NCBI GenBank assembly: GCA_011523505.1
Contig: WTGP01000008.1
Location: 62,001-126,000 of the forward strand
Direction: 5' to 3'
Length of the DNA stretch: 64,000 bases
From: Gammaproteobacteria bacterium
GTDB lineage: Bacteria; Pseudomonadota; Gammaproteobacteria; Steroidobacterales; Foliamicaceae
Part shown: one piece after another, positions 1-21,238 of the stretch
Layout of the letters: every line of letters starts with the position of its first letter
How positions within the stretch are numbered: position 1 is the first letter of the stretch
The notes under the pieces: model-generated
Told to the model about the DNA's origin: nothing
Database searches by the model: none
What the model saw: the letters and a program-made list of their open reading frames with translations, nothing else
Position numbers and translations under genes: made by a program

Positions 1-341
1 ATGCCGGTGGCCAGCGCCAGCCCGGTAAACGCCAGGCCCACAGGCGCCGCGGCCGCGGAGATGGCGTAGGCCAGCTTCATCCGCCAGACGAGTCCAATTG
101 CCGAGCCGATTGCCATCAGCGCATAGAGCTGCATGGCCAGGTAGGCGGCGGGAACGTGGAAGTAGATGATGCGGTAGGCATCGCCCTGCTGGTAGTCCGG
201 CGGCGCAAGCAGCAATCCGCCGAAAGCGCCGACCGCGATGGCCGCAAGGCCGGACCAGAGCATCCAGGGCTCGATACGCCCCGCGATCCGGTAGAAATGG
301 GGCGGCGAAGCCAGCTTGTGCAGCCAGTTGGGAAGTCGCAT
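1..341 (-). CDS. ccmC: Heme exporter protein CcmC (3' part truncated by window edge)
   Basis: Reverse-strand translation MRLPNWLHKLASPPHFYRIAGRIEPWML...DYQQGDAYRIIYFHVPAAYLAMQLYALMAIGSAIGLVWRMKLAYAI is typical CcmC; directly downstream of ccmB/ccmA. Confidence 0.9.
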   Translation of the reverse strand, partial: MRLPNWLHKLASPPHFYRIAGRIEPWMLWSGLAAIAVGAFGGLLLAPPDYQQGDAYRIIYFHVPAAYLAMQLYALMAIGSAIGLVWRMKLAYAISAAAAPVGLAFTGLALATG

Positions 342-484
342 CTTGGGCAGCCGGACGTGATCAGGAGCAGGCGAAGTTCAGCCCTGTATTTTAGCCTGTA
401 GCGTGGGTGGGAGGGCGTCCCGTCCTCCACGTAGGCAGGACGCCTTCGCTCCCGGTGTGGAAGGCGGGACCCCCTCCCCCCAAT

Positions 485-1150
485 TCAGTTTGCCGTCGCG
501 CGGAGCGCAGCGCCCGCGGCCCACGGCAACAGCCCCACGGCCACCAGCAGAAAGGCCCCCAGCATCATCAGAGGCGCTCCTGCCGGCAGTCCGTCCACCG
601 CCAGCTCCGTTCCGCGCACGCCGAACAGCAATACCGGCAATGCCAGCGGCAGGACCAGCAGCGCCAGCAGACCCACGCCTCGGCGCAGCCCCGCGGTCAG
701 CGCGGCGGCCACGGTCGCCAGCAGAATCAGCGCCGGCGTCCCCAGCGCCAGCGTCGCCGGCAGGATCACCAGCGCAGTTCCTTGCATGCCGTAACTTGCG
801 GCAAGCACCGGCGAAAGAAGAACCAGCGGCAGTCCGAAAACGCACCAGTTGGCGCCCGCCTTGGCCAGCGCCAGCCAGGCCGGATCGACCGCGCTCAGGA
901 GCATCAGGTCCAGCGTCCCGTCGTCGCGGTCCGGCTGGAACAACAGCGGCATGGAGAGCAGCATCGAGAGAAAGGCCACCACCCAGATCACGCCGGCGCC
1001 CCATTGCGCAAGCAGCTCCGGCTCCAGTCCCGCGACGATCGAAAAGAGAGACGTGGAGATAAGGAAAAAAGTAATATTTATAATGATATGTATCCACTTC
1101 TTGAAGTAGATCAAGAACTCATGCTGCAGCACGGTCAGCCAGATGCTCAT
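485..1150 (-). CDS. ccmB: Heme exporter protein CcmB
   Basis: Hydrophobic ABC permease MSIWLTVLQHEFLIYFKKW...LEPELLAQWGAGVIWVVAFLSMLLSMPLLFQPDRDDGTLDLMLLS; 4-nt overlap with ccmA. Confidence 0.92.
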   Translation of the reverse strand: MSIWLTVLQHEFLIYFKKWIHIIINITFFLISTSLFSIVAGLEPELLAQWGAGVIWVVAFLSMLLSMPLLFQPDRDDGTLDLMLLSAVDPAWLALAKAGANWCVFGLPLVLLSPVLAASYGMQGTALVILPATLALGTPALILLATVAAALTAGLRRGVGLLALLVLPLALPVLLFGVRGTELAVDGLPAGAPLMMLGAFLLVAVGLLPWAAGAALRATAN

Positions 1151-1761
1151 CTGCTGACCCCAAGAAACAACTGCGCGACCGGCCCCGGGAAATCCCAATC
1201 CAGACGGTGCCCAGCCAGCACCGCACAGCCGCCACCCTCAAGATGCGAACCTAGTTCCTGCTGCAGCCACTCCCTGCCCTGCGCATCCAGGTTGGCGTCC
1301 GGCTCGTCCAGCAACCACAGCGGCGGCCCAGCCCCGATCAGACCTGCCAGCGCCAATCGCCGGCGCTGGCCATACGACAGTTGCGAAGCAGCCCGCTCCT
1401 GCAGACCGCTCAAGCCTGCCTTTTCGAGCAGTTGGTCCTCCCTTCCCGTCGAACCAGCAAGCCTCAGCGTAAAGGCCAGGTTACGGCGCACGCTCAACTC
1501 TCCCTTGACGCCGTCCTTGTGACCCAGCCACCCCATACTGCGCAGGTAGCGCGCCGGGTCGCTTCGAAACCGCACACCGTTCAGCTCGACAGTTCCCGAC
1601 TCCAGCGGCAGCAGGCCGGCCAGGGACCGCAACAGCGAGGTCTTGCCTGAACCGTTCGGTCCCTTCAGCAGCAACAGCGCACCCGGCGCCAGGCTGAAGG
1701 ACAGTTCGTGGAAGAGGCGCCGTTCCCCGCGCCAGAGAGTCAGCCCCTGCGCCGCAAGCAT
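1147..1761 (-). CDS. ccmA: Heme exporter ATP-binding protein CcmA
   Basis: Walker A GPNGSGKTSLLR, signature LSYGQRRRLALAGL, Walker B LWLLDEPDANLD. Confidence 0.93.
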   Translation of the reverse strand: MLAAQGLTLWRGERRLFHELSFSLAPGALLLLKGPNGSGKTSLLRSLAGLLPLESGTVELNGVRFRSDPARYLRSMGWLGHKDGVKGELSVRRNLAFTLRLAGSTGREDQLLEKAGLSGLQERAASQLSYGQRRRLALAGLIGAGPPLWLLDEPDANLDAQGREWLQQELGSHLEGGGCAVLAGHRLDWDFPGPVAQLFLGVSR

Positions 1762-1769
1762 CGTGACTT

Positions 1770-2777
1770 CTAGCCGATTCTCACCAGCAGTTTGCCGAAA
1801 TGCTCGCCCCGGGTGATCGAACCGATGGCCTCCGGGCCTTCCGGCAGGGAATACTCGCGGTCAATTACGGCGGAGATGCCGTGCTTGACCAGGTGTGCGT
1901 TCAACGCCCGGTGGTCGTCGCGGGCGCCCACCGTAATCCCGTGAATGCCGGCGCACTTTCCGATCAGGGCCATGGCGCTCAACTCGGCGCTCACGCCGCC
2001 CAGCGCGCCCAGGACCCCGATCGAGCCGCCAAGTCCGAGGGCCTGCAGCGACTGGCCCAACGTGCCCATGCCGCCGGTCTCCACCACCACGTCCACGCCG
2101 CCCCCGGCGCGCTGGAAGGCTTCCGCTCCCCATTCGGGTGTCTGCTTGTAGTTGATCGTTTCATCCGCGCCCAATTCCCTGGCCCGCTCCAGCTTCTCGT
2201 CGCTTGAAGAGGTGATGACCGCGGTCGCACCGAAGGCCTTTGCGATCTGCAGGGCAAAGATGGAAACCCCGCCGGTGCCCAGCATCAGCACCTTGGAGCC
2301 CGGCCCCACCGGGCCGCCGCAATGCAGCGCGGTCCATGCCGTAACGCCCGCGCAGGCCAGCGACGCCGCCGTTTCCGTGGTCATTTCGTCGGGCACGGCC
2401 AGCAATGCCGATTCCGGAAACACGCCCAATTCGGTGAGCGCCCCCGGCGCCTCGCATCCGGTTGTGCGGGTGCGCACGCCGGGCCGCACCGGCTGTGACT
2501 CCCAGTCCTGCCAGAACACCGTCATGACGCGGTCGCCCGGCTCAAACTCCATGACTTCCGAGCCGACCGACTCCACCACCCCTGCCCCGTCGGACAACGG
2601 AATCAGCGGGTATTCCTTGCCGCCGCCGTAGATGCCGGCGCAGATCATGAAATCCCGGTAGTTGATCGCAGCCGCCTGCATCCGCACACGCACCTCGCCC
2701 GGCCCGGGCTCCGACGCCGCGCCCGAAACGACCTCGAGGTTCTCCAGGCCGGACGCCGTCAACTGCACGCACTGCAT
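1770..2777 (-). CDS. Zinc-type alcohol dehydrogenase / quinone oxidoreductase-like MDR protein
   Basis: MDR fold with nucleotide-binding GTGGVSIFALQIAKAFGA and DGAGVVESVGSEV motifs. Confidence 0.85.
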   Translation of the reverse strand: MQCVQLTASGLENLEVVSGAASEPGPGEVRVRMQAAAINYRDFMICAGIYGGGKEYPLIPLSDGAGVVESVGSEVMEFEPGDRVMTVFWQDWESQPVRPGVRTRTTGCEAPGALTELGVFPESALLAVPDEMTTETAASLACAGVTAWTALHCGGPVGPGSKVLMLGTGGVSIFALQIAKAFGATAVITSSSDEKLERARELGADETINYKQTPEWGAEAFQRAGGGVDVVVETGGMGTLGQSLQALGLGGSIGVLGALGGVSAELSAMALIGKCAGIHGITVGARDDHRALNAHLVKHGISAVIDREYSLPEGPEAIGSITRGEHFGKLLVRIG

Positions 2778-2959
2778 AAGTTTCTCCCTCGGAAAATCCC
2801 AAATGAATCGCTGTCAGAGGGCGGATTGTGCCCTATTCCCCCCAGGAAGGGGTCTCAATCGCCTGGTCACAGCGTATCGTTTCCGCCAATTGCCAAGATC
2901 GCCGATTCTGTATAGCCTTGCAGCATAGGGGATTCATACATTGACCGGGGACCGGGACC

Positions 2960-4084
2960 ATGCAGAAACCGACACTGAAGGACGTTTACCGCCCCACCCA
3001 TGACGAGGCGGCAAGGCACGCATTCGTCGGCGCGTTGAAGGGCTACCTGAACGGTCCGCTGGAAGCGCGCCTTGCAGGTCACTACGAGGGCAACCTCAAA
3101 CCCGCTTACGTCGAGGCACGCGGACGCGAACCGGAGAACCGCACGGAGGGAACCGAGGCGTTTCGCGACGATCACCTCTACCAGCTTTGGGGGAGTTCGG
3201 TGTTTACCTCCCAGGACCTGATGTGGGAGACGGTGGGCGAAACCTGCGATCGGCTGCTTCCGGACTTTGAAGCGCGGCGAGAGGAACTGGCGAACCGGGA
3301 ACTGCACGGCCGTCTCGAAATCGAGGAAGGATTCGTCCCCCCGGATCCCATCCGCCGCGTGGAAATCCACCGCCAGCCGGGTGGCTATTTCGGGCAATCG
3401 GGCGATACCAGCCTGCGCCTGGGCATGGACTACATGGGCACGGGCGAGCTCTATCGAGCCGCCAAGGGCCTGTCGGAAGGCGACGAAGTCGGCGACCCGG
3501 GGATGGGCAAATTCCTCCTCGGCGCTCTCGGACGCCGGTTTCCCGATGCCGATCCCGGTTCCGTGCTCGACATGGGCTGCGGAGTCGGCGTCCACACGGT
3601 TGCCTACAAACAGGCATTCCCGAATGCGGAGGTATGGGGCGTGGACCTGTCCGCGCCTTTCCTCCGCTTTGCCCACGTATGGGCGGAAGACAAGGGCCTG
3701 GCCATCAACTACCGGCAGGCCAATGCCAACGACACCGGCTTCGCCGACGGGCAGTTTGACCTGATCGTGTCGCACATCATGTTTCATGAGACCTGGCACG
3801 ACATCCTTCCCGGAATCATGGAGGAGGCCCATCGCCTGCTGGCACCCGGCGGGATTTTCCTGAACGGGGATACGCCCTATCAACCTGACCGCCTGTCCAT
3901 GACCAAGCAGGTCACCAACCACTGGCAGGTCGTCAATAACGGAGAGCCCTTCTGGACCGGCTATGCCGACACCGATATGCGCCAGGCGCTGATCGACGGC
4001 GGCTTCGACCCGCAGCACGTCTTCGCCGAATACGACCCCCTGGGTTCGGGCGAATACTTCATATTCGGCGGAGTCAAGGCGTGA
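2960..4084 (+). CDS. Class I SAM-dependent methyltransferase with N-terminal 'QPGGY' region (cassette A)
   Basis: SAM motif VLDMGCGVGVHTVAY, NAEVWGVDLS; N-terminal VEIHRQPGGYFG shared with the methyltransferases at 60378 and 62311. Confidence 0.85.
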   Translation: MQKPTLKDVYRPTHDEAARHAFVGALKGYLNGPLEARLAGHYEGNLKPAYVEARGREPENRTEGTEAFRDDHLYQLWGSSVFTSQDLMWETVGETCDRLLPDFEARREELANRELHGRLEIEEGFVPPDPIRRVEIHRQPGGYFGQSGDTSLRLGMDYMGTGELYRAAKGLSEGDEVGDPGMGKFLLGALGRRFPDADPGSVLDMGCGVGVHTVAYKQAFPNAEVWGVDLSAPFLRFAHVWAEDKGLAINYRQANANDTGFADGQFDLIVSHIMFHETWHDILPGIMEEAHRLLAPGGIFLNGDTPYQPDRLSMTKQVTNHWQVVNNGEPFWTGYADTDMRQALIDGGFDPQHVFAEYDPLGSGEYFIFGGVKA

Positions 4085-4365
4085 TGACGGCCGCCGGCGA
4101 CGATGCCGCGCGGCCCCACAAGCTGCCGCGTCCACGCCAGATCCAGGACCTGAACCCCGATCAGCTGGTAGCCGTCATCTGGCGGCTGGCGATGGAAATC
4201 TGCGTGCTGCGCGACCGGCTCGGCACGCACGAGGCCCTGCTTGCCGGACAAAACGTGCTTTCCCGCAACGACATCGAAGCCTATTCGCCCTCGAAGGACG
4301 AAGCGGCCGCCCGTCTGAAGGCCCGCACCGAGCTGATCGAGAACATCATCAACGACCTGAGCTAG
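4081..4365 (+). CDS. Small helical protein, partner of the cassette A methyltransferase
   Basis: 4-nt overlap with the methyltransferase; resembles ORFs 61476-61754 and 61953-62297 (pattern vxxxxxLxxEixxxRxRLxxxExLL ... YxPSxxE). Confidence 0.7.
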   Translation: MMTAAGDDAARPHKLPRPRQIQDLNPDQLVAVIWRLAMEICVLRDRLGTHEALLAGQNVLSRNDIEAYSPSKDEAAARLKARTELIENIINDLS

Positions 4366-4392
4366 CCCCGAAACGGCCACGAGGAGGAAGTC

Positions 4393-5271
4393 ATGTGCGA
4401 TGACCGAACATTCAGGGAATCCCGCGAGTATCTGAACGACAGGAACGAGCTGAGCCGGCGCAGGTTCACCCAGCTTTCCGCCGGGGCCGGGCTCGCAATG
4501 CTGTTGCCGCGGGCTGCCAATGCGCAGGAAGTGACCGAACAGAATGTAGAAGTCACCACGCCCGACGGCGTCGCGGACTGCTATTTCGTGCATCCCGCGT
4601 CCGGACGCCATCCCGGTGTCCTGGTGTGGCCGGACATTCTCGGCCTTCGCCCGGCGTTCAAGCAGATGGGCCGGCGGCTAGCCGAGTCGGGCTACTCGGT
4701 CCTCGTGGTCAATCCCTTCTACCGCTCGGCGCGCGCACCGGTTGTGCCCGAAGGCGCGACCTTCCAGGACGAGTCGGTAAGGGACACGGTCTTCCCGCTC
4801 TATCGCCAGCTCAGTGCCGAAACCCACGTCACCGACGCCCGGGCCTTTGTCGATTTCCTCGACTCGCAGGCAGCCGTGGATCCGGACCGCAGGATGGGCA
4901 CCACCGGTTACTGCATGGGCGGCCCGATGACGATGCGAACCGCCTGGGCGCGCTCCGACCGCATCGGCGCCGGCGCATCGTTCCACGGCGGCGGGCTCGT
5001 TACCGATGGGCCGGACAGCCCGCACCTGCTCGTTGGCGAAATGAACGCGCACTACCTGTTCGCCGTCGCCGAGAACGACGACGACAGCGATCCGGAAGCG
5101 AAGAACGTGCTGCGCAAGACCTTCGCGGCGGCCGGACTTCCCGCCGAGATCGAGGTCTACGAGGGGGCGCTGCACGGCTGGTGCCCGCCGGACTCGTCCG
5201 TCTATAACGAGGCGCAGGCCGAACGGGCCTGGAGCCGGCTGCTCGTCCTGTTCGACACCGCGCTCGCCTGA
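4393..5271 (+). CDS. Dienelactone hydrolase family protein with Tat-like signal
   Basis: SRRRFTQLSAGAGLAMLLPRAANA leader; nucleophile region GTTGYCMGGPMTMR; C-terminal ALHGWCPPDSSVYNEAQAERAW. Confidence 0.85.
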   Translation: MCDDRTFRESREYLNDRNELSRRRFTQLSAGAGLAMLLPRAANAQEVTEQNVEVTTPDGVADCYFVHPASGRHPGVLVWPDILGLRPAFKQMGRRLAESGYSVLVVNPFYRSARAPVVPEGATFQDESVRDTVFPLYRQLSAETHVTDARAFVDFLDSQAAVDPDRRMGTTGYCMGGPMTMRTAWARSDRIGAGASFHGGGLVTDGPDSPHLLVGEMNAHYLFAVAENDDDSDPEAKNVLRKTFAAAGLPAEIEVYEGALHGWCPPDSSVYNEAQAERAWSRLLVLFDTALA

Positions 5272-9483: not shown

Positions 9484-11247
9484 ATGGCCCCCGACCAATC
9501 CGGCACGCGCTCGCTGGACCGACTCCATCCGGACGCGAAGATCCCGTTTCCGCTCAGCACGGGACTTGCATTGCAGATTGCCTGCCTGGTGCTGCCCGGC
9601 GCGGTGATGATCCCTACGGTCGTGTTCCGGGCCGCGGGCCAGTCCGAGGAAGCGCTGCTATGGGCCGTGTTCGCTTCCGTCGCAATCTCCGGCGTCACTG
9701 CGATAGTCCAGGCTCGGCGGATCGGACGGTTCGGCGCAGGTTACATCCTCGCGATCGGAACATCCGGGGCCGCCATCGCGGTCAGCATCGCCGCCCTCGC
9801 GGCAGGCGGTCCGGCATTGCTCGGGACCCTGGTCGTTGTCCTCGCCCTGGTCCAGTTTGCGTTCGCCGCACGCCTCTCGCTGTTCCGGCGCATCCTCACG
9901 CCCACCGTAACGGGGACGGTACTGATGCTCACGCCGGTCACGGTCATGCCAATCATGTTCGACCAACTGAAGAACGTGCCGGCCGGCACGCCGCCGCTGG
10001 GCACGGCGCTCAGCGCGCTGACGACCCTGGTCGTGATCGTCGGCATCGCACTGACGGCAAAAGGCCGGGCACGCCTGTGGGCGGCGATCATCGGAATCGT
10101 CGCGGGCTCGGCCGTCGCGGGCACATTCGGTCTGTATGACCTGGATCGCATCGCCCTGGCTCCGTGGATCGGTATTCCAAGCACCGAATGGACCGCCCCG
10201 GACCTGCGTTTCTCGCCGGACTTCTGGGCGCTGCTTCCCGCGTTCGTGTTCGTCGCCCTGGTCTGCACGATGCAAACGATAGGCGGCGCCGTCGCTATCC
10301 AGCGTGTGTCCTGGGCCGAGAGCCGCGCTATCGATTTCCGGGCGATACAAGGCGCCGTGGCCGCCGACGGGATAGGCAATCTGCTGTCGGGCCTGGCGGG
10401 CACGATGCCGCTCGGCTTCCGGCCTACGGGTGCGTCCATGGTCGAGATCACCGGAGTCAGCTCTCGCCGCATCGGCCTCGCCCTGGGGGCGGCGCTGATC
10501 GTGCTGGCTTTCGTTCCCAAGGCGCTTGCCGTGATCCTGGCAATACCGGGCCCGGTCATCACCGCGTTCGTCGGCGTCACCATGGCAACCATCTTCATCA
10601 TAGGCATGAAGGTGATCATTCAGGATGGAATTGACTTTCGCAAAGGCCTGATTGCCGGCGTCTCGTTCTGGATCGGCGCAGGCTTTCAGAGCGGCGCGAT
10701 ATTCCCCGGGTATTTCTCCGAGTTTGCAGGCGCTCTGCTGAATAATGGGATGCTGACCGGGGGCATCGTGGCGATCGTCATGACCCTGTTTGTCGAACTG
10801 ACGAAGCCGCGCGCACGCCGAATACATCTGAAGTTCGATCCCTCCGCCCTGCATGAGATCCGGGATTTCGTCGGTGTATTCGCATCGCGGAGAGGCTGGA
10901 GTGCTCAGATGAAGGATCGTCTGGATGCCGTCTGCGAAGAAACTTTGCTGACTCTCCAGCAACAGGAAGAATCCGGTGCGGACGACGAGCGACAGCTGAT
11001 CCTCACGGCGCGCAGCGAGGACGGCGGAGCGGTGCTGGAATTCGTTGCCTCCAGGGGCGAAGAAAACATACAGGATCGGATGGCTCTGCTGGGCGAGGCC
11101 AACGCGGCAGCGATGATCGAGCAGGACGTTTCGCTGAGGCTGTTGCGCCACCTTGCCTCCTCGGTCCGCCATCAGCAGTACCACGACACTGAAATCGTGA
11201 CCGTGCGCGTGGAACCACCCGGAGGAAGGACTGCCCGTGGAAAATAA
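9484..11247 (+). CDS. NCS2-type nucleobase (xanthine/uracil) permease with C-terminal RsbW/HATPase-like extension
   Basis: About 12-TM body with VQARRIGRFGAGYILAIGTSGA and IQRVSW...DFRAIQGAVAADGIGNLLSGLAGTMP; soluble C-terminus LHEIRDFVGVFASRRGWSAQMKDRLDAVCEETLLTL...SLRLLRHLASSVRHQQYH. Confidence 0.8.
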   Translation: MAPDQSGTRSLDRLHPDAKIPFPLSTGLALQIACLVLPGAVMIPTVVFRAAGQSEEALLWAVFASVAISGVTAIVQARRIGRFGAGYILAIGTSGAAIAVSIAALAAGGPALLGTLVVVLALVQFAFAARLSLFRRILTPTVTGTVLMLTPVTVMPIMFDQLKNVPAGTPPLGTALSALTTLVVIVGIALTAKGRARLWAAIIGIVAGSAVAGTFGLYDLDRIALAPWIGIPSTEWTAPDLRFSPDFWALLPAFVFVALVCTMQTIGGAVAIQRVSWAESRAIDFRAIQGAVAADGIGNLLSGLAGTMPLGFRPTGASMVEITGVSSRRIGLALGAALIVLAFVPKALAVILAIPGPVITAFVGVTMATIFIIGMKVIIQDGIDFRKGLIAGVSFWIGAGFQSGAIFPGYFSEFAGALLNNGMLTGGIVAIVMTLFVELTKPRARRIHLKFDPSALHEIRDFVGVFASRRGWSAQMKDRLDAVCEETLLTLQQQEESGADDERQLILTARSEDGGAVLEFVASRGEENIQDRMALLGEANAAAMIEQDVSLRLLRHLASSVRHQQYHDTEIVTVRVEPPGGRTARGK

Positions 11248-12991
11248 CGGCATTGATAAAGGGCTGCGCTTTGAAGCGGATGATCGGCCCTCCCTGCCCC
11301 TCACTATCGGGCTGGGATTGCAGAACACGGCGCTGACCCTGGCCGGCGTCGTGCTTACTCCAACAATCCTCATTACAACCGCCGGTGCGAGCGATGCCTA
11401 TCTCAACTGGGCCCTGTTCGCCGCGTTGGCGGTCAGCGGCTTGGCCACGTTCATTCAAGCCATGCGATTTGGCCGCATCGGCGCCGGTTATATCCTGGTA
11501 ATGGGCAGTACCACCGCTTATCTCGCGGTCGGCATCAGCGCCGTGCGCAGCGGAGGTCCCGAGCTGATGGCCACGCTGATCGTCGTGGCTGCCTTTACAC
11601 AGTTCATTCTCGGCTCGAGAATGGCCATGTTACGGCGCGTATTTACGCCTACGGTTGCCGGCACGGTGCTCATGCTGATACCCGTGAGCATCGCGCCGAT
11701 CATTTACGGCAAGCTGATCAATGTGCCGGCGTCCGTTGCCCCCGCCGCCGCACCGGTAACGGCGCTGGTGACGCTCGCCGCCTCCGTTCTCCTGGCGCTG
11801 AGGCTGTCCGGCATCTGGAGGCTCTGGGCCCCAGCCATCGGCCTGGTATCAGGGAGCCTCGCGGGAGCGGCGTTTGGAATCTACGACACAGCGCGCATTG
11901 CGGCCGCGCCCTGGATAGGGCTGCCGGATTTCAGTGCCTATCCGGGGCTTGACCTCAGCTTCGACGCCACTTTCTGGGCGCTGCTTCCGGGGTTCATCCT
12001 GGTCACGCTGGTCGGCGCGTTGGACACGCTGGGCGACGCGATCGCCATCCAACGTGTGTCATGGCGCAAGCCGCGCGCGACCGACTTCCGATCGATCCAG
12101 GGCGCAATCTACGCCGACGGCGTCGGCAACCTCCTGTCCGGATTAGGCGGGACGGTACCGAACACCACTTACGGCAGTTGCATCGCCGTTGTGGAAATCA
12201 CCGGAGTGGCCGCCCGCCGTGTGGGCGTCTGCGTCGGCGTGATTTTTGCTGTGCTGGCGCTCCTGCCGAAAATCGTCGCCGTGGTGGTCGCAATACCCGG
12301 ACCAGTCGTGGGGGCCTACCTGGCCGTAATCATGGCGCTTATTTTCGTTCTTGGCGTGCGAATCGTGATTGCCGACGGATTTGACTACCGCAAGCGCCTG
12401 ATCGTCGGATTCGCCGTCATGGTGGGTGTGTTGTTCCAGTTTGACCTGGTCTATCCGGCTCTTCAGGAAGGAGCATGGGGTGAGATTCTCGGTCAGGGCA
12501 TGACGGTCGGAGGCATCACCGTAATTCTTCTCTCAGGCTTCGTGGATCTGACCCGGTCCAGACCGCGGCGCCTGCGGACCACGCTCTCCATCGCGGCGGT
12601 GCCGGCAATCGATTCGTTCCTGTGCGATTTCGCCCAACGGGCGCGTCTGGATGAAAGGACCGCGTTCCGGCTTCGCGCGGTCGGCGAAGAAGTTCTGCAT
12701 ATCCTGCTCGATGACCGAACGGAGGAAGCCGAACGCGATCTGTTGCTGATTGCCCGGGCGGACGGCATGGCCACGGACCTGGAATTTATCGCCGGCGGCT
12801 CGGAAATCAACCTGGAAGATCAACTCGCGATGCTCAGTGAGGGAGGCGCCGACCTACCCAACGAGTCCGAGGTGCCGCTGCGCCTGCTGCGCCATTACGC
12901 CACTTCGGTCCGGCACCAGCAATATCACGGAACGGACATCGCCACGATCCGCATCGAACCGGAGGGAGCCCCCAGGGGCGAAGCGAGCTAG
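11237..12991 (+). CDS. NCS2-type nucleobase permease with C-terminal RsbW/HATPase-like extension (tandem paralogue)
   Basis: Collinear with the preceding gene; GVGNLLSGLGGTVPNTTYGSCIAVVEITGVAARRVG; same C-terminal extension ending PLRLLRHYATSVRHQQYHGTDIATIRIEP; 11-nt overlap. Confidence 0.8.
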   Translation: MENNGIDKGLRFEADDRPSLPLTIGLGLQNTALTLAGVVLTPTILITTAGASDAYLNWALFAALAVSGLATFIQAMRFGRIGAGYILVMGSTTAYLAVGISAVRSGGPELMATLIVVAAFTQFILGSRMAMLRRVFTPTVAGTVLMLIPVSIAPIIYGKLINVPASVAPAAAPVTALVTLAASVLLALRLSGIWRLWAPAIGLVSGSLAGAAFGIYDTARIAAAPWIGLPDFSAYPGLDLSFDATFWALLPGFILVTLVGALDTLGDAIAIQRVSWRKPRATDFRSIQGAIYADGVGNLLSGLGGTVPNTTYGSCIAVVEITGVAARRVGVCVGVIFAVLALLPKIVAVVVAIPGPVVGAYLAVIMALIFVLGVRIVIADGFDYRKRLIVGFAVMVGVLFQFDLVYPALQEGAWGEILGQGMTVGGITVILLSGFVDLTRSRPRRLRTTLSIAAVPAIDSFLCDFAQRARLDERTAFRLRAVGEEVLHILLDDRTEEAERDLLLIARADGMATDLEFIAGGSEINLEDQLAMLSEGGADLPNESEVPLRLLRHYATSVRHQQYHGTDIATIRIEPEGAPRGEAS

Positions 12992-13695
12992 TTCCTGACG
13001 AAGTGCCCCAGGTAATGGCGGCTTTCCGCTCGCACGCCGCTCGCGCTTACGCAAGCATCGTGAACCAGGCGCTCCGTGCAGCAGACGTACGCAACATTCG
13101 GCCGCTGAAGCATCCGCAAACAGGGGGTCCGCCGCGTGTTCCGGATATACGTGTCGGCCACTTCGCCGGGATGAAGGCCTTCCGCTGACTCCAGGGACTC
13201 CGCCATATCCTCGATGGGCACAGGCACCAGATAGACATACCGGTCGGCCGGGCCCCTGTTCACGACGATCCGGTTGCGGCTTTTCCATCGGGAAGACACT
13301 TCGCGCCCGTCCCACGAGTCGAGGTGCAAGCCCAACCGCAATCCGGATATCCGATCCACCGTGATCGAAGGACGACCCCCATCGTCGACGGACGGGTCGA
13401 GCGCGGCGACCTGCGACAGGCTCATAAACGGCGAGAAATCCAGCGCCCGCTCGGAGTTCAGGTCGCAGGGGAAAATCGCGACAAAATCCAGTTCGTCTTC
13501 GATCGACAGCTCCTCGAGCGACGCGGTGTATTTCTTGACTTCGAGTTCGTCCAGCCTTCGAAAATCGACCGGCAATCTTGCGTCAGGCCGGTAGTCGACG
13601 GCGTCCGGGTAATACTCCTGCGCGCAGACCAGCGATTCGCTGTACGAAACCAGGTCGTACACATCGCCCAGCCTGCGGTCAAGGTAGATTTTCAT
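12988..13695 (-). CDS. Putative Fe(II)/2-oxoglutarate oxygenase-like RiPP tailoring protein
   Basis: GLHLDSWDG...SRNRIVVNRGPADRYVYLVPV (HxD-like) and distal PNVAYVCCTERLVHDACV; directly downstream of the radical SAM gene. Confidence 0.55.
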   Translation of the reverse strand: MKIYLDRRLGDVYDLVSYSESLVCAQEYYPDAVDYRPDARLPVDFRRLDELEVKKYTASLEELSIEDELDFVAIFPCDLNSERALDFSPFMSLSQVAALDPSVDDGGRPSITVDRISGLRLGLHLDSWDGREVSSRWKSRNRIVVNRGPADRYVYLVPVPIEDMAESLESAEGLHPGEVADTYIRNTRRTPCLRMLQRPNVAYVCCTERLVHDACVSASGVRAESRHYLGHFVRN

Positions 13696-13741
13696 GGAGG
13701 ATCTAGAGGCGCCGGCGCGAGATTGCGGCGGACCCGCCGAC

Positions 13742-14917
13742 TCAGATCAGGTCCGCGCCGACCTTTTCCAGCGGTTCGCCGTGCAGGGCCAGGTGCCTCA
13801 CGACGTGGGTGTAGAACTTGTCCAGGCCTTCGCAATAGACCGTGGGGTTGTCGAATCCCTTGCTGCTCCCATACCGGTGAACGGGCTGGCCACTGCCGCA
13901 GACGTCCCGCCAACAGCAATCCGAACAGGCGGATGCAGGCGTCTTCTTGTAGTGTTCGAATTCGTGAAACAGCGTGTCCTGGATGATTTCTCCGATGCTG
14001 GAACTCTTCAGGTCCCTGTAGTCGTATCCGTTCCAGTACTTCGTGGATCGCAGTGTGTCGTCGGGCCCTACTCCGCCATCGGACGACACGGTAATCAGTA
14101 GATGGTCCGGATCATCGTTCCCGTCGCCGAAGAGGAAGTTGCCCTGCCCGTAGATCCGCGCCAGGAAATGATCGATAAACCGAACGCCCACCGACTCCTC
14201 GTCCTTCGCCATCCGGTCGAAAACCTCGATCAGAAAATCGCCATAGGCTTCCGCGTTACCGGAAAAATTGTCGTGATTCAGGTCGGGAAGCAGAAAGTCG
14301 AGCTGGCGCACGTCAAGGTCGCGTCGAAAGTGGTCGTAGATTTCCCCGGCATCGAAATCCTCGCCGATCACGGCCAGCACGGCAGGAGGTTGATTCAGAT
14401 GTTCCTGACACAGGGCCAGACCGCGAACGGTCGCCTGGTAGGACGACCTGCCGTTGTGATCGAGGCGATGGGCGTCGTTGTGCGCCTTTGCTCCGTCCAG
14501 ACTGACACCCACCTGAACGCGATGCCGGTTGAAAGTCTCGATCCAATCGAGATCAACCAGCATTCCATTGGTCTGGATCGTCATCGACAGGTCAACTACG
14601 GGATCCAGATTTGACCTGATCTCACGGCAGATGCGGTCGAGCCGGGCTTTCGGCATCAGAAGCGGTTCGCCGCCATGCAGGTGTATCGCTATTCGTTGAA
14701 GTTCGTACTCCTCGGAAAATTCCTTGAGCCGTTGCACCAGCAGTGCAACGGTGTCATTTGATATGAGCGCCGAGTGCCCCTTGTAGCTGTCGTCTCCCGC
14801 GTTGAAGAAATAGCAATAGTCGCAATTCAGATTACATCGCTCGGTAATCTTCAAAATGACTTCCAGCGTATTCAGCTCGCGGAAGTTCACGGTTCTTCCT
14901 TCAGTAGCCACAGGCAC
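13742..14917 (-). CDS. Radical SAM/SPASM peptide maturase
   Basis: CNLNCDYCYFFN (CX3CX2C), HLHGGEPLL, QTNGMLVD, GVSLDGAKAHNDAHR; C-terminal Cys-rich SPASM-like region ACSDCCWRDVCGSG...YCEGLDKFYTHV. Confidence 0.92.
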   Translation of the reverse strand: MPVATEGRTVNFRELNTLEVILKITERCNLNCDYCYFFNAGDDSYKGHSALISNDTVALLVQRLKEFSEEYELQRIAIHLHGGEPLLMPKARLDRICREIRSNLDPVVDLSMTIQTNGMLVDLDWIETFNRHRVQVGVSLDGAKAHNDAHRLDHNGRSSYQATVRGLALCQEHLNQPPAVLAVIGEDFDAGEIYDHFRRDLDVRQLDFLLPDLNHDNFSGNAEAYGDFLIEVFDRMAKDEESVGVRFIDHFLARIYGQGNFLFGDGNDDPDHLLITVSSDGGVGPDDTLRSTKYWNGYDYRDLKSSSIGEIIQDTLFHEFEHYKKTPASACSDCCWRDVCGSGQPVHRYGSSKGFDNPTVYCEGLDKFYTHVVRHLALHGEPLEKVGADLI

Positions 14918-14930
14918 ACTCGCTGTTACG

Positions 14931-14955
14931 CCCTGAAGCTTTACCAGCTTCAGGG
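14931..14955 (-). promoter_or_regulatory. Perfect 10-bp stem-loop between RiPP precursor and radical SAM gene (attenuator or processing hairpin)
   Basis: ccctgaagct-ttacc-agcttcaggg; not followed by a U-tract on the minus strand. Confidence 0.75.
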
Positions 14956-14992
14956 CCAGGCAACAGGCTCAGAACAGAGGAGTTTCCGCTAC

Positions 14993-15292
14993 TTAAGCAT
15001 CGGGCGCCGGCGGAGCAGAAACGAAATTGCCGCCTGCTACTGCCTGACGTCCCGCCACCACGGCATCGGGCGCGGGCGGAGCGGAGACAAAATTGCCGCC
15101 TGCAGCCGCACGACTTCCAGCCGCCAACGTATCGTCCATGGGCGGCGCGGAAACGAAATTGCCGCCGGCTCCCGAATAGCTCGAGATCTTCGCCCGCAGA
15201 TTCGGACCGATCGCCTTGCCCGCTGCTTCCTTCTGGTCACTGTCGGAGATTCCCAGCTTCTCCCGGAGCTTGCGCACCTTCATGTCTTCCAT
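14993..15292 (-). CDS. Repeat-containing RiPP precursor peptide (99 aa)
   Basis: Leader MEDMKVRKLREKLGISDSDQKEAAGKAIGPNLRAKISSYSG followed by three AGGNFVSAPP units with 22-aa period, immediately upstream of a radical SAM/SPASM gene. Confidence 0.85.
   Translation of the reverse strand: MEDMKVRKLREKLGISDSDQKEAAGKAIGPNLRAKISSYSGAGGNFVSAPPMDDTLAAGSRAAAGGNFVSAPPAPDAVVAGRQAVAGGNFVSAPPAPDA
15009..15167 (-). repeat. Three 66-bp-period units encoding GGNFVSAPP cores
   Basis: Cores ggcggagcrgaracraaattgccgcc at about 15009, 15075 and 15141. Confidence 0.9.
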
Positions 15293-15513
15293 AGTTCCCC
15301 TCGCTTATTTGCCAAAAGTGATTTCATTCTACATCCACCTGATCCTGATCGGGACTGCTTGCGCCCACGACTCCATTCGGATGACTGAAATGTGCTCGCA
15401 ATCTGACCGAATTGACTACCAAACCTGATCTGCTAGGATCAGAAGTCAATCCGCTGACGCAACGTCGGTTCAGGTGTCGGCAGATTACTTAACATAAGTA
15501 GGGGATTATCAAC

Positions 15514-17712
15514 ATGCAATACCGATACCTCTTGTGGTGCCTTATGGGCCTCCTTCCATTAGCCGAGTTTGCCGCAGCGCAAGAAGTGGCGCTCGAAGAA
15601 ATCGTCGTGACGTCGCAGAAGCGGGAAGAGTCATTGCAGTCGGTCCCCATTCCCGTGTCGGCCCTGGGTGTCGAAACACTGGAAGACCGGCAGATCGTCG
15701 AAGCTCAGGACCTTGAGCGCTACGTTCCAAGCCTGAAGATGACCAATAACATAACGCAGCCCACAAACCTCTCAGCCTCCCTGCGCGGTTCCCTGGTCCA
15801 GGATGCATCGCTGGCCGTGGCGGAATCTCCGTTCGGCATTTACGTGGACGACGTTTATATCGGCCGCTTGAACGGCAACAATGTCCGTCTTGCGGACGTG
15901 GAACGGATAGAGGTGCTGCGCGGACCTCAGGGCACGCTTTATGGCCGGAACACCCTGGCCGGAGCCATTCGTTTCATCAGCCGTGATCCGGGAGAACAAT
16001 CCTGGCTGAAAGCATCCGCCGGTTTCGGCAATTACGATCAATATGAAGCTTCGGCCAGCGCCGGCGGTCCTCTTGGGGACGAGTTCGCCGGATCATTCGC
16101 TATCCAATTCAACGGACACAGCGGATACGGAACGAACCTGGCTACGGATTCCAATATCGGCGAAGACAAGAATTGGGCGGGACGGGTCAAATTGCGCTAC
16201 ATGGGCGGCGAGAACTTCGACGCCACGATTAACGTGTCCTACGCCGACAGCAGCAATGACGCGGTCAGAATGGTCGCCGCCACCACCCCCGGTGTGCCGC
16301 GGAATCGACAGCACACGTCCGAGGACCTCGTCCCGACCTTTGGCGGCCTTTACGATGTTTCCATTCCCGACCAGGACTACAGCGGCGGCGGGCGGACGGA
16401 CATCACCAACCAGCCCCGGGGCGATACGGAACAGCTCGTCACTTCTCTCACGATGTCCTATGACTTCGACCGCACGACATTGAAGTCCATCACGGGGTAC
16501 GCCGATACGTCCGATTTCTGGGCCAACGATTTCTCGGGCGCCGGTGCCATTCTCGCTTCCATAGGCACCGACTCCGACCAATTCAGCCAGGAATTACAGC
16601 TGCAAGGCAGCGCTGTTGGCGACAGGCTGAACTACACGGCCGGCGCGTTTTATTTTCAGGAAGACTCCACTCAGGACATCGGCTGGTTTTTCGCGTCCGT
16701 TGGCGGCCCTGTGTCCAGGAGCCATATCGATGTGAGTACGGAGTCGTATGCGTTCTTTGGTCAGGCCGACTACGCCATTACCGACAAGCTCACCTTTACC
16801 GGAGGGATTCGCTGGATCAGCGAAGACAAGGAGTGGGATTTCGACTTTCAGCTCCTGTTTATCCCGCTTCCCGCGGAGTTCATCGAGGAAGCCCTGGAAT
16901 ACGACGCGTGGACGCCGAAGATCGGCCTTGATTACGAGTTTGAAACCTCGGGACCCGTGGACAGCCTCATGCTCTACACGTCGGCCGCCAAGGGATTCAA
17001 GTCAGGCGGCTTCAACGGCATCAATATTTTCAACACGAGCGTCGCCAAATCCAGTTACGGGCCGGAGACCAACTGGACCTACGAAATCGGCGTCAAGACG
17101 GAAATGTTCAATAACCGTTTCCGTTTGAATGCCAACTACTTCGTCAACCGGGGCACCGATATAACACTGAACGCCAACGTTATCGTCGATGGCAATCCGA
17201 CCTTTCCCGTCCAGAACGCCGGAAATGTCACGATCAAGGGGCTTGAACTGGAAAGCACGGCTATTCTGTTCGAAGGCTTTACCGCGTTCGTAACGGGAAC
17301 ATTTCTGGATGGCAGGTTCCGTGAAATTGATCCGACCACCGCTCCGGCAAACTCGTTGGCGAACTATGGCGTGGAAGCGGAGCCCCCTCAGACCGCCGAC
17401 TTCGCGTTTGCCGTCGGCTTTGACTATATCCGTGACATCGACCTGGCCGGCAGGGCGGCGGCGATCAAGCTGGGCGTGGACTATTACCATACCGACGAGT
17501 ACGTCCTCGTTGCGACGCAGGAGTTCCTGATAAGCCCCTATAACCGCATCAATGCCTATGTGGGCCTGGCGTTCGATGAACGATGGGAAGCGCGCCTTGC
17601 CATGCAGAACCTCGAGGACGACCGGAGCTTCATCACCGGTTCACGAGGCCTCGGCGGCTCCATCGCCCTGCCGCCGCGCACCTACAAATTGACGCTGAAC
17701 TACAGCATGTAA
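15514..17712 (+). CDS. TonB-dependent receptor
   Basis: Signal peptide, plug EEIVVTSQKREESLQSVPIPVSAL, VERIEVLRGPQGTLYGRNTLAGAIRFIS, C-terminal YKLTLNYSM. Confidence 0.92.
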   Translation: MQYRYLLWCLMGLLPLAEFAAAQEVALEEIVVTSQKREESLQSVPIPVSALGVETLEDRQIVEAQDLERYVPSLKMTNNITQPTNLSASLRGSLVQDASLAVAESPFGIYVDDVYIGRLNGNNVRLADVERIEVLRGPQGTLYGRNTLAGAIRFISRDPGEQSWLKASAGFGNYDQYEASASAGGPLGDEFAGSFAIQFNGHSGYGTNLATDSNIGEDKNWAGRVKLRYMGGENFDATINVSYADSSNDAVRMVAATTPGVPRNRQHTSEDLVPTFGGLYDVSIPDQDYSGGGRTDITNQPRGDTEQLVTSLTMSYDFDRTTLKSITGYADTSDFWANDFSGAGAILASIGTDSDQFSQELQLQGSAVGDRLNYTAGAFYFQEDSTQDIGWFFASVGGPVSRSHIDVSTESYAFFGQADYAITDKLTFTGGIRWISEDKEWDFDFQLLFIPLPAEFIEEALEYDAWTPKIGLDYEFETSGPVDSLMLYTSAAKGFKSGGFNGINIFNTSVAKSSYGPETNWTYEIGVKTEMFNNRFRLNANYFVNRGTDITLNANVIVDGNPTFPVQNAGNVTIKGLELESTAILFEGFTAFVTGTFLDGRFREIDPTTAPANSLANYGVEAEPPQTADFAFAVGFDYIRDIDLAGRAAAIKLGVDYYHTDEYVLVATQEFLISPYNRINAYVGLAFDERWEARLAMQNLEDDRSFITGSRGLGGSIALPPRTYKLTLNYSM

Positions 17713-18313: not shown

Positions 18314-21238
18314 ATGAACGAATTCATAGTGACGCACGTCGAGTCCGGAGAAACGCTTTCCGAGATTGCGGCTCGATATGGCGTCAGCGTGGAGGCGTTA
18401 CAGCGATGGAACAGAATCGAAAACCCTGACCTGGTGCGGGTTGGCCAGAGGATTGTTGTTTACGAGGAAGAGACCGCTGAATCCTTCGCCTCCGAGAACG
18501 CGATGTCCCAGGCAGAGCCTGTTTTCGACGTGGCGCTTGGCTCTTGGGGTGTCTGGGTGGGGGGACTCATCCTTCTGGCACTTCTGCCTCTTGTGCTCCA
18601 TCGGATACGAGGCCGGCGTCGCCGGAAGCTCGCTGCGCAAGCCGCCCAACTTGGTTGGTGGCGCGCGCAACTGGCCGCACAGGCCGAGAAGCTCCATTCT
18701 GTGGATGAGCGCCTCGCTCAACTCCAGGACCCTCCTCGATACGTGGCGCGCAGTATTTTTTCCGTCCTGGAACGCGACGCCCAGGACATTGCGGTCCAGT
18801 TCTCATCGCATTGGCCCGAGCAATTGTCGGATACGGCAGAGATCCGAGCGTTGGCGAGGATACGCGACTTCCTGGGGGACCCTAACGGCCACCGAGTCGC
18901 AGCCAACAACACCTTTGTTACAAACGAACTGGTCCGCTCTCAAGAATTTTTCGACCGGATCGAGGCACATCCGCTTACGGACGAACAACGGAAAGCGGTC
19001 GTCGTCGACGAGGACCATAACCTGGTTGTCGCGGCAGCGGGCAGCGGCAAGACATCGGTGATCGTGGCCAAAGCCGGTTGGCTCTTACGGAACAGGTATC
19101 GGCGCCCATCGGAACTTTTGCTTCTCGCCTTCGCGAAGGATGCCCAGATGGAAATGAAGGAAAGAGTTCGCCATCACCTGGGTGCTCAGGCGACAGCCGA
19201 TCTCACCGTGCGAACCTTTCACAGCCTGGGTATGTCGATCATCGGTGCGTCCGAGGGCAAAAGCCCGTCGCTGGCCAAGGTTGCCGAGGACGATAAGGCG
19301 CTGTACGACTTGCTGAAGCGCATCATCGCCGACCTGCTCGTCAATCCTAAATTCGCGGCGGTCATGTTGAAGTGGTTCCGCGATCACTTTGCGCCTTACG
19401 AGAGCGAACACGAGTTTCAGAATCAGGGCGAGTACTGGAACTATGTCCGAGCGAATGAGTTACGTTCGTTGAAGGGTGAATTGGTCAAGAGCTATGAAGA
19501 GTGCGAGATCGCCAATTTTCTATATCTCAACGGCGTCGCCTACGAATATGAGCACCCCTACGAACACGACACCGCGACGTTGGAGAAGCGACAATATCTG
19601 CCCGACTTCTACCTTCCCGACGCCGGAATCTATATCGAACACTTTGCACTCAATGCGTCGGGGGACACTCCTCCCTTTATCGATCAAGAAAAGTATCTCC
19701 GGTCGATGGGCTGGAAGCGCGAACTCCACGACCAACACAATACCGTCCTGATCGAAACCTTCAGCCACGAAAAATCCGCCGGCACGTTGACTGAGAATCT
19801 GACCGCCAAGCTCGCCGAGCATGGCGTGGACTTCTCTCCGACTCCTCCAGACGATGTATTCGCCATCCTCGAGGAGCAAGGCCGGATCGACCCGTTCACG
19901 CGCCTAGTCGCGACTTTTCTTAACCACTACAAGGGCTCCCAGTTGTCTCCCAGGGAACTGGCCGTGCGGGCCGCGACAGCCCCGGACCGACCGCGTGCCC
20001 AGGCTTTTGTCGAGGTGTTCGGAGCGGTCTTCGAGCGTTACCAGGACTCACTCGCTCAAGTGCGGCAGATCGATTTTCACGACATGATCAACAGAGCGAC
20101 GGAGCACGCGGAAAGCGGACGTTATCGCAGCTCGTTCGATTACATACTCGTTGACGAATTCCAGGATATCTCGCCAGGCCGGGCGCGGCTTCTGAAGTCA
20201 CTGCTGGACCAGTCACCTACCGCGCAACTGTTCGCCGTCGGCGACGACTGGCAGGCCATCTATCGATTTGCCGGCTCAGACATCGCCATCATGCGCGAAA
20301 TGAAGGAACGCTTCGGCGCCACCGAGCGCATCGACCTGGCGACAACTTTCCGGTGTGCGGACCGCATCGCCGAGGTCGCGACCGAATTCGTGCTCCGCAA
20401 CCCGGCACAGATTCGCAAGAACGTGTCCTCCGTGCTTAGTGCGGACGGGCCGTGTGTAAACATCGGTCTACCCGCAGGACAATCCACCGATCTGCTCAGA
20501 GAAACGCTCGGGATGATTGCCGCCGACGCAGCTAAGCGGGGTGAGGCACCCACTGTCCTGTTGCTCGGCCGCTACAGGCACACCAGACCCGAAAACTTGG
20601 ACCAACTTGCGAGGGAATACCCCGAACTAAGCCTTTCCTACAAGACCGTGCACAGCTCCAAGGGGCTTGAGGCCGATTGCGTCGTGATACTCGAAATGTG
20701 CGCCGGCAAGTATGGTTTTCCTACAGAGATCGCCGATGACCCGCTGCTCAATTTGGTCCTTGCCGCGCCGGAGCCGTTTCCGCATTCAGAGGAGCGGCGC
20801 CTGCTTTATGTAGCCATCACCCGCGCCAGGCGGGCGGCCTACCTATTGGCAGACGGCGAATCGCCTTCCACATTCGTAACGGAACTGGTTGACGAAGGGT
20901 ACGACGTCAACGTCTATGGTCGGCCACAGAAGAGCGATGTTGCCTGCCCACAATGCGTTGCCGGACGTCTCGTGCGCCGCAAGAGTAAACAGAACGGGAG
21001 CGTGTTCTATGGCTGCTCACACTATCCATACTGCAGGCACATGCAGACCGCCTGCCCCCATTGCAGGATCGGATTGCCAGTGAGGGCTGACGACATTTTC
21101 CGTTGCCACGCCTGCGACAAGACCGTTGAGCCATGCCCGTCATGCGACGGATGGCTGCGCAATATCACAGGACAATACGGACCGTTTCTCGGTTGCTCAA
21201 ATTACCCGGACTGCCGTTACACGAGAAAATTGGAGTGA
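18314..21238 (+). CDS. LysM-TM-SF1 (UvrD/helicase IV-like) helicase with embedded nuclease-like insert and C-terminal topoisomerase-type zinc ribbons
   Basis: LysM VESGETLSEIAARYGVSVEALQRWNRIENPDLVRVGQRIVVY; TM GVWVGGLILLALLPLVL; Walker A AAAGSGKT; VDEFQDI; insert YLPDFYLPDAGIYIEHF; CPQC...GCSHYPYCRH and CPSC...GCSNYPDCRYT. Confidence 0.85.
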   Translation: MNEFIVTHVESGETLSEIAARYGVSVEALQRWNRIENPDLVRVGQRIVVYEEETAESFASENAMSQAEPVFDVALGSWGVWVGGLILLALLPLVLHRIRGRRRRKLAAQAAQLGWWRAQLAAQAEKLHSVDERLAQLQDPPRYVARSIFSVLERDAQDIAVQFSSHWPEQLSDTAEIRALARIRDFLGDPNGHRVAANNTFVTNELVRSQEFFDRIEAHPLTDEQRKAVVVDEDHNLVVAAAGSGKTSVIVAKAGWLLRNRYRRPSELLLLAFAKDAQMEMKERVRHHLGAQATADLTVRTFHSLGMSIIGASEGKSPSLAKVAEDDKALYDLLKRIIADLLVNPKFAAVMLKWFRDHFAPYESEHEFQNQGEYWNYVRANELRSLKGELVKSYEECEIANFLYLNGVAYEYEHPYEHDTATLEKRQYLPDFYLPDAGIYIEHFALNASGDTPPFIDQEKYLRSMGWKRELHDQHNTVLIETFSHEKSAGTLTENLTAKLAEHGVDFSPTPPDDVFAILEEQGRIDPFTRLVATFLNHYKGSQLSPRELAVRAATAPDRPRAQAFVEVFGAVFERYQDSLAQVRQIDFHDMINRATEHAESGRYRSSFDYILVDEFQDISPGRARLLKSLLDQSPTAQLFAVGDDWQAIYRFAGSDIAIMREMKERFGATERIDLATTFRCADRIAEVATEFVLRNPAQIRKNVSSVLSADGPCVNIGLPAGQSTDLLRETLGMIAADAAKRGEAPTVLLLGRYRHTRPENLDQLAREYPELSLSYKTVHSSKGLEADCVVILEMCAGKYGFPTEIADDPLLNLVLAAPEPFPHSEERRLLYVAITRARRAAYLLADGESPSTFVTELVDEGYDVNVYGRPQKSDVACPQCVAGRLVRRKSKQNGSVFYGCSHYPYCRHMQTACPHCRIGLPVRADDIFRCHACDKTVEPCPSCDGWLRNITGQYGPFLGCSNYPDCRYTRKLE

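Follow-up and report, generated by a model that had tools for sequence, protein, structure and literature searches.

The 64,000-nucleotide stretch of DNA analysed here, referred to as the window, carries a well-supported RiPP system, which from its sequence is a three-gene cassette of the triceptide kind with a radical SAM (rSAM) enzyme of an unnamed clade and a 2-oxoglutarate (2OG) oxygenase that likewise has no name. It is proposed, with a probability of about 0.7, that the cassette is self-contained and that Phe-Ser cyclophanes would be formed in its precursor, followed by oxidation by the 2OG oxygenase. The three genes were found on the minus strand where the initial annotation had placed them, and the features are as follows:

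14993..15292, minus strand: precursor peptide gene, 99 aa, with a leader of ~42 aa followed by three cores
15140..15166, minus strand: core 1, GGNFVSAPP, residues 43-51, proposed Phe46-Ser48 cross-link
15074..15100, minus strand: core 2, GGNFVSAPP, residues 65-73, proposed Phe68-Ser70 cross-link
15008..15034, minus strand: core 3, GGNFVSAPP, residues 87-95, proposed Phe90-Ser92 cross-link
13742..14917, minus strand: radical SAM/SPASM peptide maturase, 391 aa
12988..13695, minus strand: probable Fe(II)/2-oxoglutarate oxygenase, 235 aa, with invariant residues in homologues and a profile match to MicC

The 99-aa product has the three GGNFVSAPP units first described for it, starting at residues 43, 65 and 87, with a repeat period of 22 aa and a last unit shortened to 13 aa. 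The linkers (MDDTLAAGSRAAA and APDAVVAGRQAVA) are variable in sequence, as had been noted, but each is 13 aa long, one residue longer than quoted. The precursor ATG is preceded by a Shine-Dalgarno-like GAGGGGAA, and the leader is conserved among homologues (MEDxKxxxLREKLGIS...NLxxKIS). The three core copies of the window have 3-4 synonymous differences and no amino-acid difference, which, together with the retention of the gene in twelve other loci, excludes a chance origin of this open reading frame.

The same cassette is present in twelve further loci, mostly from gammaproteobacterial MAGs and with differing flanks; the record of one of them (L004) is labelled Alphaproteobacteria. A scan of genome contigs with the window rSAM gave ten loci (L003-L012), having rSAM proteins 67-95% identical to it, and also a more remote, XyeB-like one from Trinickia (L013, 33% identity). 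Two additional loci (L026 and L027) come from genomes of the genus of the window, and in a search of 397 genomes of its order the rSAM was found in five of the nine sampled genomes of that genus, the window counted. The order precursor, rSAM, oxygenase is kept in 13/13 cassettes, and both the repeats and the linkage to the rSAM gene, on which the initial annotation had made its reading depend, hold in the precursor homologues of all 12 relatives. The sample codes of the related MAGs (COS, RHO, SB, CO) may be those of sponge metagenomes.

The number of cores differs among the loci, with two in L011 and L027, three in the window, L003, L005, L006, L007, L008, L010 and L026, and four in L009 and L012. 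In L004, an assembly gap (3812-3912) lies inside the repeat array, with one core before it and three after it, giving at least 4 copies, and the array ends with the variant APS. The linkers range from 1-2 residues (L006, L007) to 13 (window). As linker length and copy number vary and the core does not, it is the core that is kept according to this comparison, and not the spacing. The 36 complete cores are encoded by 28 distinct 27-mers, and they vary at just two positions, where the V after the Phe can be I and the A preceding the prolines can be S, with G-G-N-F-x-S-x-P-P invariant. This scarcity of amino-acid variants among so many DNA versions (pS 0.64, pN 0.011) indicates strong selection on the peptide. 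When the window is compared with L026, the three cores show 7 synonymous and 0 nonsynonymous changes, and the spacers 8 synonymous and 8 nonsynonymous changes. No paper mentioning GGNFVSAPP was found in the library of papers searched.

The rSAM protein has the CNLNCDYCYF segment read at first, with the CxxxCxxC cysteines at C28, C32 and C35, and matches Pfam Radical_SAM (E 2e-14). Its start may be the GTG at 14890, which has AAGGAAG upstream, instead of the GTG at 14917. The SPASM-like C-terminus (C331, C334, C340 and C362) was also confirmed, though the Pfam SPASM score is 15.2 bits vs a threshold of 21.5. The protein matches three cyclophane maturase models of the FxsB/XyeB/GrrM type with E 1e-77 to 6e-85, and it does not reach the NCBIfam cut-offs for YhhB (NF041707; 285 bits, cut-off 445), XyeB (TIGR04496; 281 bits, cut-off 450) or FxsB (TIGR04269; 262 bits, cut-off 370). 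Among solved proteins ChlB is its nearest relative (E 4e-62, residues 21-378), and the XyeB encoded on a Xenorhabdus plasmid is 34% identical. The 13 rSAM proteins of the cassettes group as one clade in a maximum-likelihood tree (support 100/100) and, together with Xye-like sequences, are split from Yhh and Fxs (100/99), with long branches leaving the exact sister of the cassette clade uncertain. By these comparisons, the enzyme clearly belongs to the superfamily that forms three-residue cyclophanes (triceptides), outside every named family, and its proposed reading as a cyclophane-forming rSAM of the FxsB/XyeB type is supported by the superfamily-level model scores and the ChlB match.

According to a review, triceptide enzymes link an aromatic residue i to the C-beta of residue i+2, and a bond between Phe C4 and Ser C-beta is reported for MscB (PMC11002830). 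All 36 complete cores carry F-[VI]-S, the only aromatic-x-x element of the core. On this rule, the MscB precedent and the uniqueness of the motif, F-V-S is the best candidate for the cross-link site. The cassette shares the rSAM/SPASM superfamily and an aromatic-x-x core with the known triceptide systems (XncB/XyeB, OscB/GrrM, MscB/FxsB), and differs from them in its own rSAM clade, in the multi-core F-x-S set in a GGN...APP frame and in a separate 2OG oxygenase that is not YhhC. In comparison with FxsB/FxsA, F-x-S is internal and repeated here, vs the C-terminal FxSxx.

The rSAM enzyme could instead modify the core in another way, such as an Asn, Val or Pro cross-link, an ether or C-N link, or epimerisation, leaving Phe and Ser unjoined. 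Because F and S share their invariance across the 36 complete cores with GG, N and the prolines, they are not marked out by conservation as such, and relatives such as DynA and DarE make different links. As the enzyme falls below all curated cut-offs and forms a clade of its own, it may carry out a different reaction, on Phe, Asn, Val or Pro. However, three-residue cyclophanes at aromatic-x-x motifs are what its best homologues (ChlB, XyeB, YhhB and FxsB) make, and F-x-S with a variable x agrees with that rule; modification of another kind is considered rather improbable.

Searches of the 235-aa protein against Pfam and NCBIfam gave no match at a threshold as loose as E 10, and HExxH is absent from its sequence. 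The HxD...H spacing noticed in it corresponds to residues that are invariant among 11 homologues (H124-x-D126 and H212), as is R226. A profile built from these 11 proteins gave one solved match, MicC (PDB 9vkm, E 1.5e-5; next match E 1.4), an alpha-ketoglutarate oxygenase in which H-I-D stands opposite H124-x-D126 and H-D opposite H212-D. MicC is the sole solved sequence relative, and the match spans just 127 residues. With respect to a double-stranded beta-helix fold, AlphaFold gave a poor model (pLDDT 53) from a shallow alignment. In a Foldseek search with this low-confidence model, the matches listed were weak (E 0.03-0.24) and nearly all JmjC-type oxygenases, with one alkylsulfatase dioxygenase. 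The MicC match and the invariant HxD...H iron triad support the 2OG-oxygenase-like reading first given to the protein, which is very probably a 2OG oxygenase. This family is rare, as no further genome with it was detected among 369 sampled from the class.

In the mechanism proposed here, the conserved leader of the 99-aa precursor would be bound by the radical SAM/SPASM enzyme, which would abstract a hydrogen at the Ser C-beta and, within each GGN-F-V-S-APP core, bond Phe(i) with Ser(i+2). A precursor would then carry as many as three three-residue cyclophanes, each formed with a loss of 2 Da. The 2OG/Fe(II) oxygenase would then hydroxylate or otherwise oxidise a residue in each ring-closed core, with Asn, Val or Pro as the likeliest targets, and the linkers would be cut by shared proteases, releasing short cyclophane peptides. 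The reaction, its site, the order of the steps, the release and the biological role of the cassette product are inferred. Of the solved rSAM structures, the nearest, ChlB (PDB 9gm3), resembles the proposed route in forming several cyclophanes per precursor with subsequent hydroxylation; its alpha-KG HExxH domain is fused to the rSAM, whereas the window oxygenase is a separate ORF with HxD...H. The title of the ChlB paper, as it appears in the reference list of PMC12636437, describes a multiple cyclophane synthase. A more elaborate and doubtful version is that the cassette represents a new triceptide-like family in which the distinct rSAM clade would close several Phe-Val-Ser cyclophanes per precursor and the new, MicC-related oxygenase family would go beyond hydroxylation, for example by adding a second cross-link, through the invariant Asn or Pro, that makes each core bicyclic.

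Neither a protease gene nor an exporter gene accompanies the cassette in the loci compared. Two transporters with a C39 peptidase and its catalytic Cys are encoded elsewhere in the genome; because they are unlinked to the cassette and the residues before GG depart from the usual double-glycine pattern, C39 processing at each GG is unlikely. In L003 only, two prolyl oligopeptidase (S9) genes (20-4600) end 44 bases before the precursor gene, a possible processing link that is not conserved. A separate locus, L022, encodes a XyeB-like maturase together with a C39 peptidase-ABC transporter; its candidate precursor ends in FGGLGLFCKACWGQCEPN. The lack of a linked protease or exporter, and the free variation of copy number and linkers, would also agree with the repeat protein being a short unmatured scaffold or binding protein, with both enzymes acting elsewhere; yet this is very unlikely given the leader-core layout, the concentration of selection on the core and the constant linkage with an rSAM of the peptide-maturase type in 13 loci with different flanks.

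The cassette resembles YhhABC in its order of precursor, rSAM and 2OG oxygenase and in its occurrence in the same bacterial order, and differs in the precursor and oxygenase families, in the sub-cut-off rSAM and in the lack of Tyr/His in the core. At E 10, no cassette protein matches the YhhA precursor model (NF041705), and none matches the YhhC oxygenase model (NF041706). Two genomes of the order of the window have true YhhABC triceptide clusters (L023, L024), and these served as controls: both precursors match the YhhA model at 48 bits, the rSAM of L023 reaches 489 bits with the YhhB model (cut-off 445), and the oxygenases score 218 and 228 bits with the YhhC model. As the window proteins fail models that clusters of the same order pass, filing the cassette under Yhh would be wrong, and the Yhh label suggested in the initial annotation is not supported. 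That the cassette is simply a YhhABC cluster is thus extremely improbable, for although YhhB is the top rSAM model and the gene order is shared, the tree sets the rSAM on the Xye side (100/99) and the oxygenases are not alignable (hhalign probability 0.6%, with a shallow profile).

The cassette offers a compact and easily expressed three-gene system for testing whether F-x-S cyclophanes can be put repeatedly into one precursor, with a proteobacterial rSAM from outside the named families as the enzyme tested, and it identifies an oxygenase family that Pfam and NCBIfam lack. By its sequence conservation, the cassette is real and under selection, with an unusually regular multi-core precursor, and nature already supplies a series of precursors, with 2, 3 and 4 copies and linkers of 1 to 13 residues, in which to study how a leader directs modification at repeated sites.

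A TonB receptor gene (15514-17712, plus strand) is divergent to the precursor gene. It was rejected as a member of the cassette, since it adjoins it in only three loci and, with its downstream genes, is present without it, in the same position, in one related genome (G052), where homology stops at window position 15428. With the receptor in place there, it looks resident, and the cassette gained or lost beside it. NCS2 permeases, a Rieske dioxygenase, a YCII protein, SHMT and an S9 peptidase were also rejected, as they vary between loci. Near the cassette in relatives are a YCII protein and a Rieske dioxygenase pair, the latter lying between the two NCS2 permeases. In the window, the last 4 bases of a convergent NCS2 permease gene are shared with the oxygenase gene. 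This permease belongs to a tandem of purine-type NCS2 permeases (9484-11247 and 11237-12991, plus strand), ~47% identical, each with an additional C-terminal region of ~180 aa that has no Pfam match and by eye appears like an anti-sigma-type ATPase. At 18314-21238 (plus strand), a 974-aa protein combines an N-terminal LysM, a UvrD-type helicase and two topoisomerase zinc ribbons with an apparent membrane segment, an odd mix for a cytoplasmic helicase.
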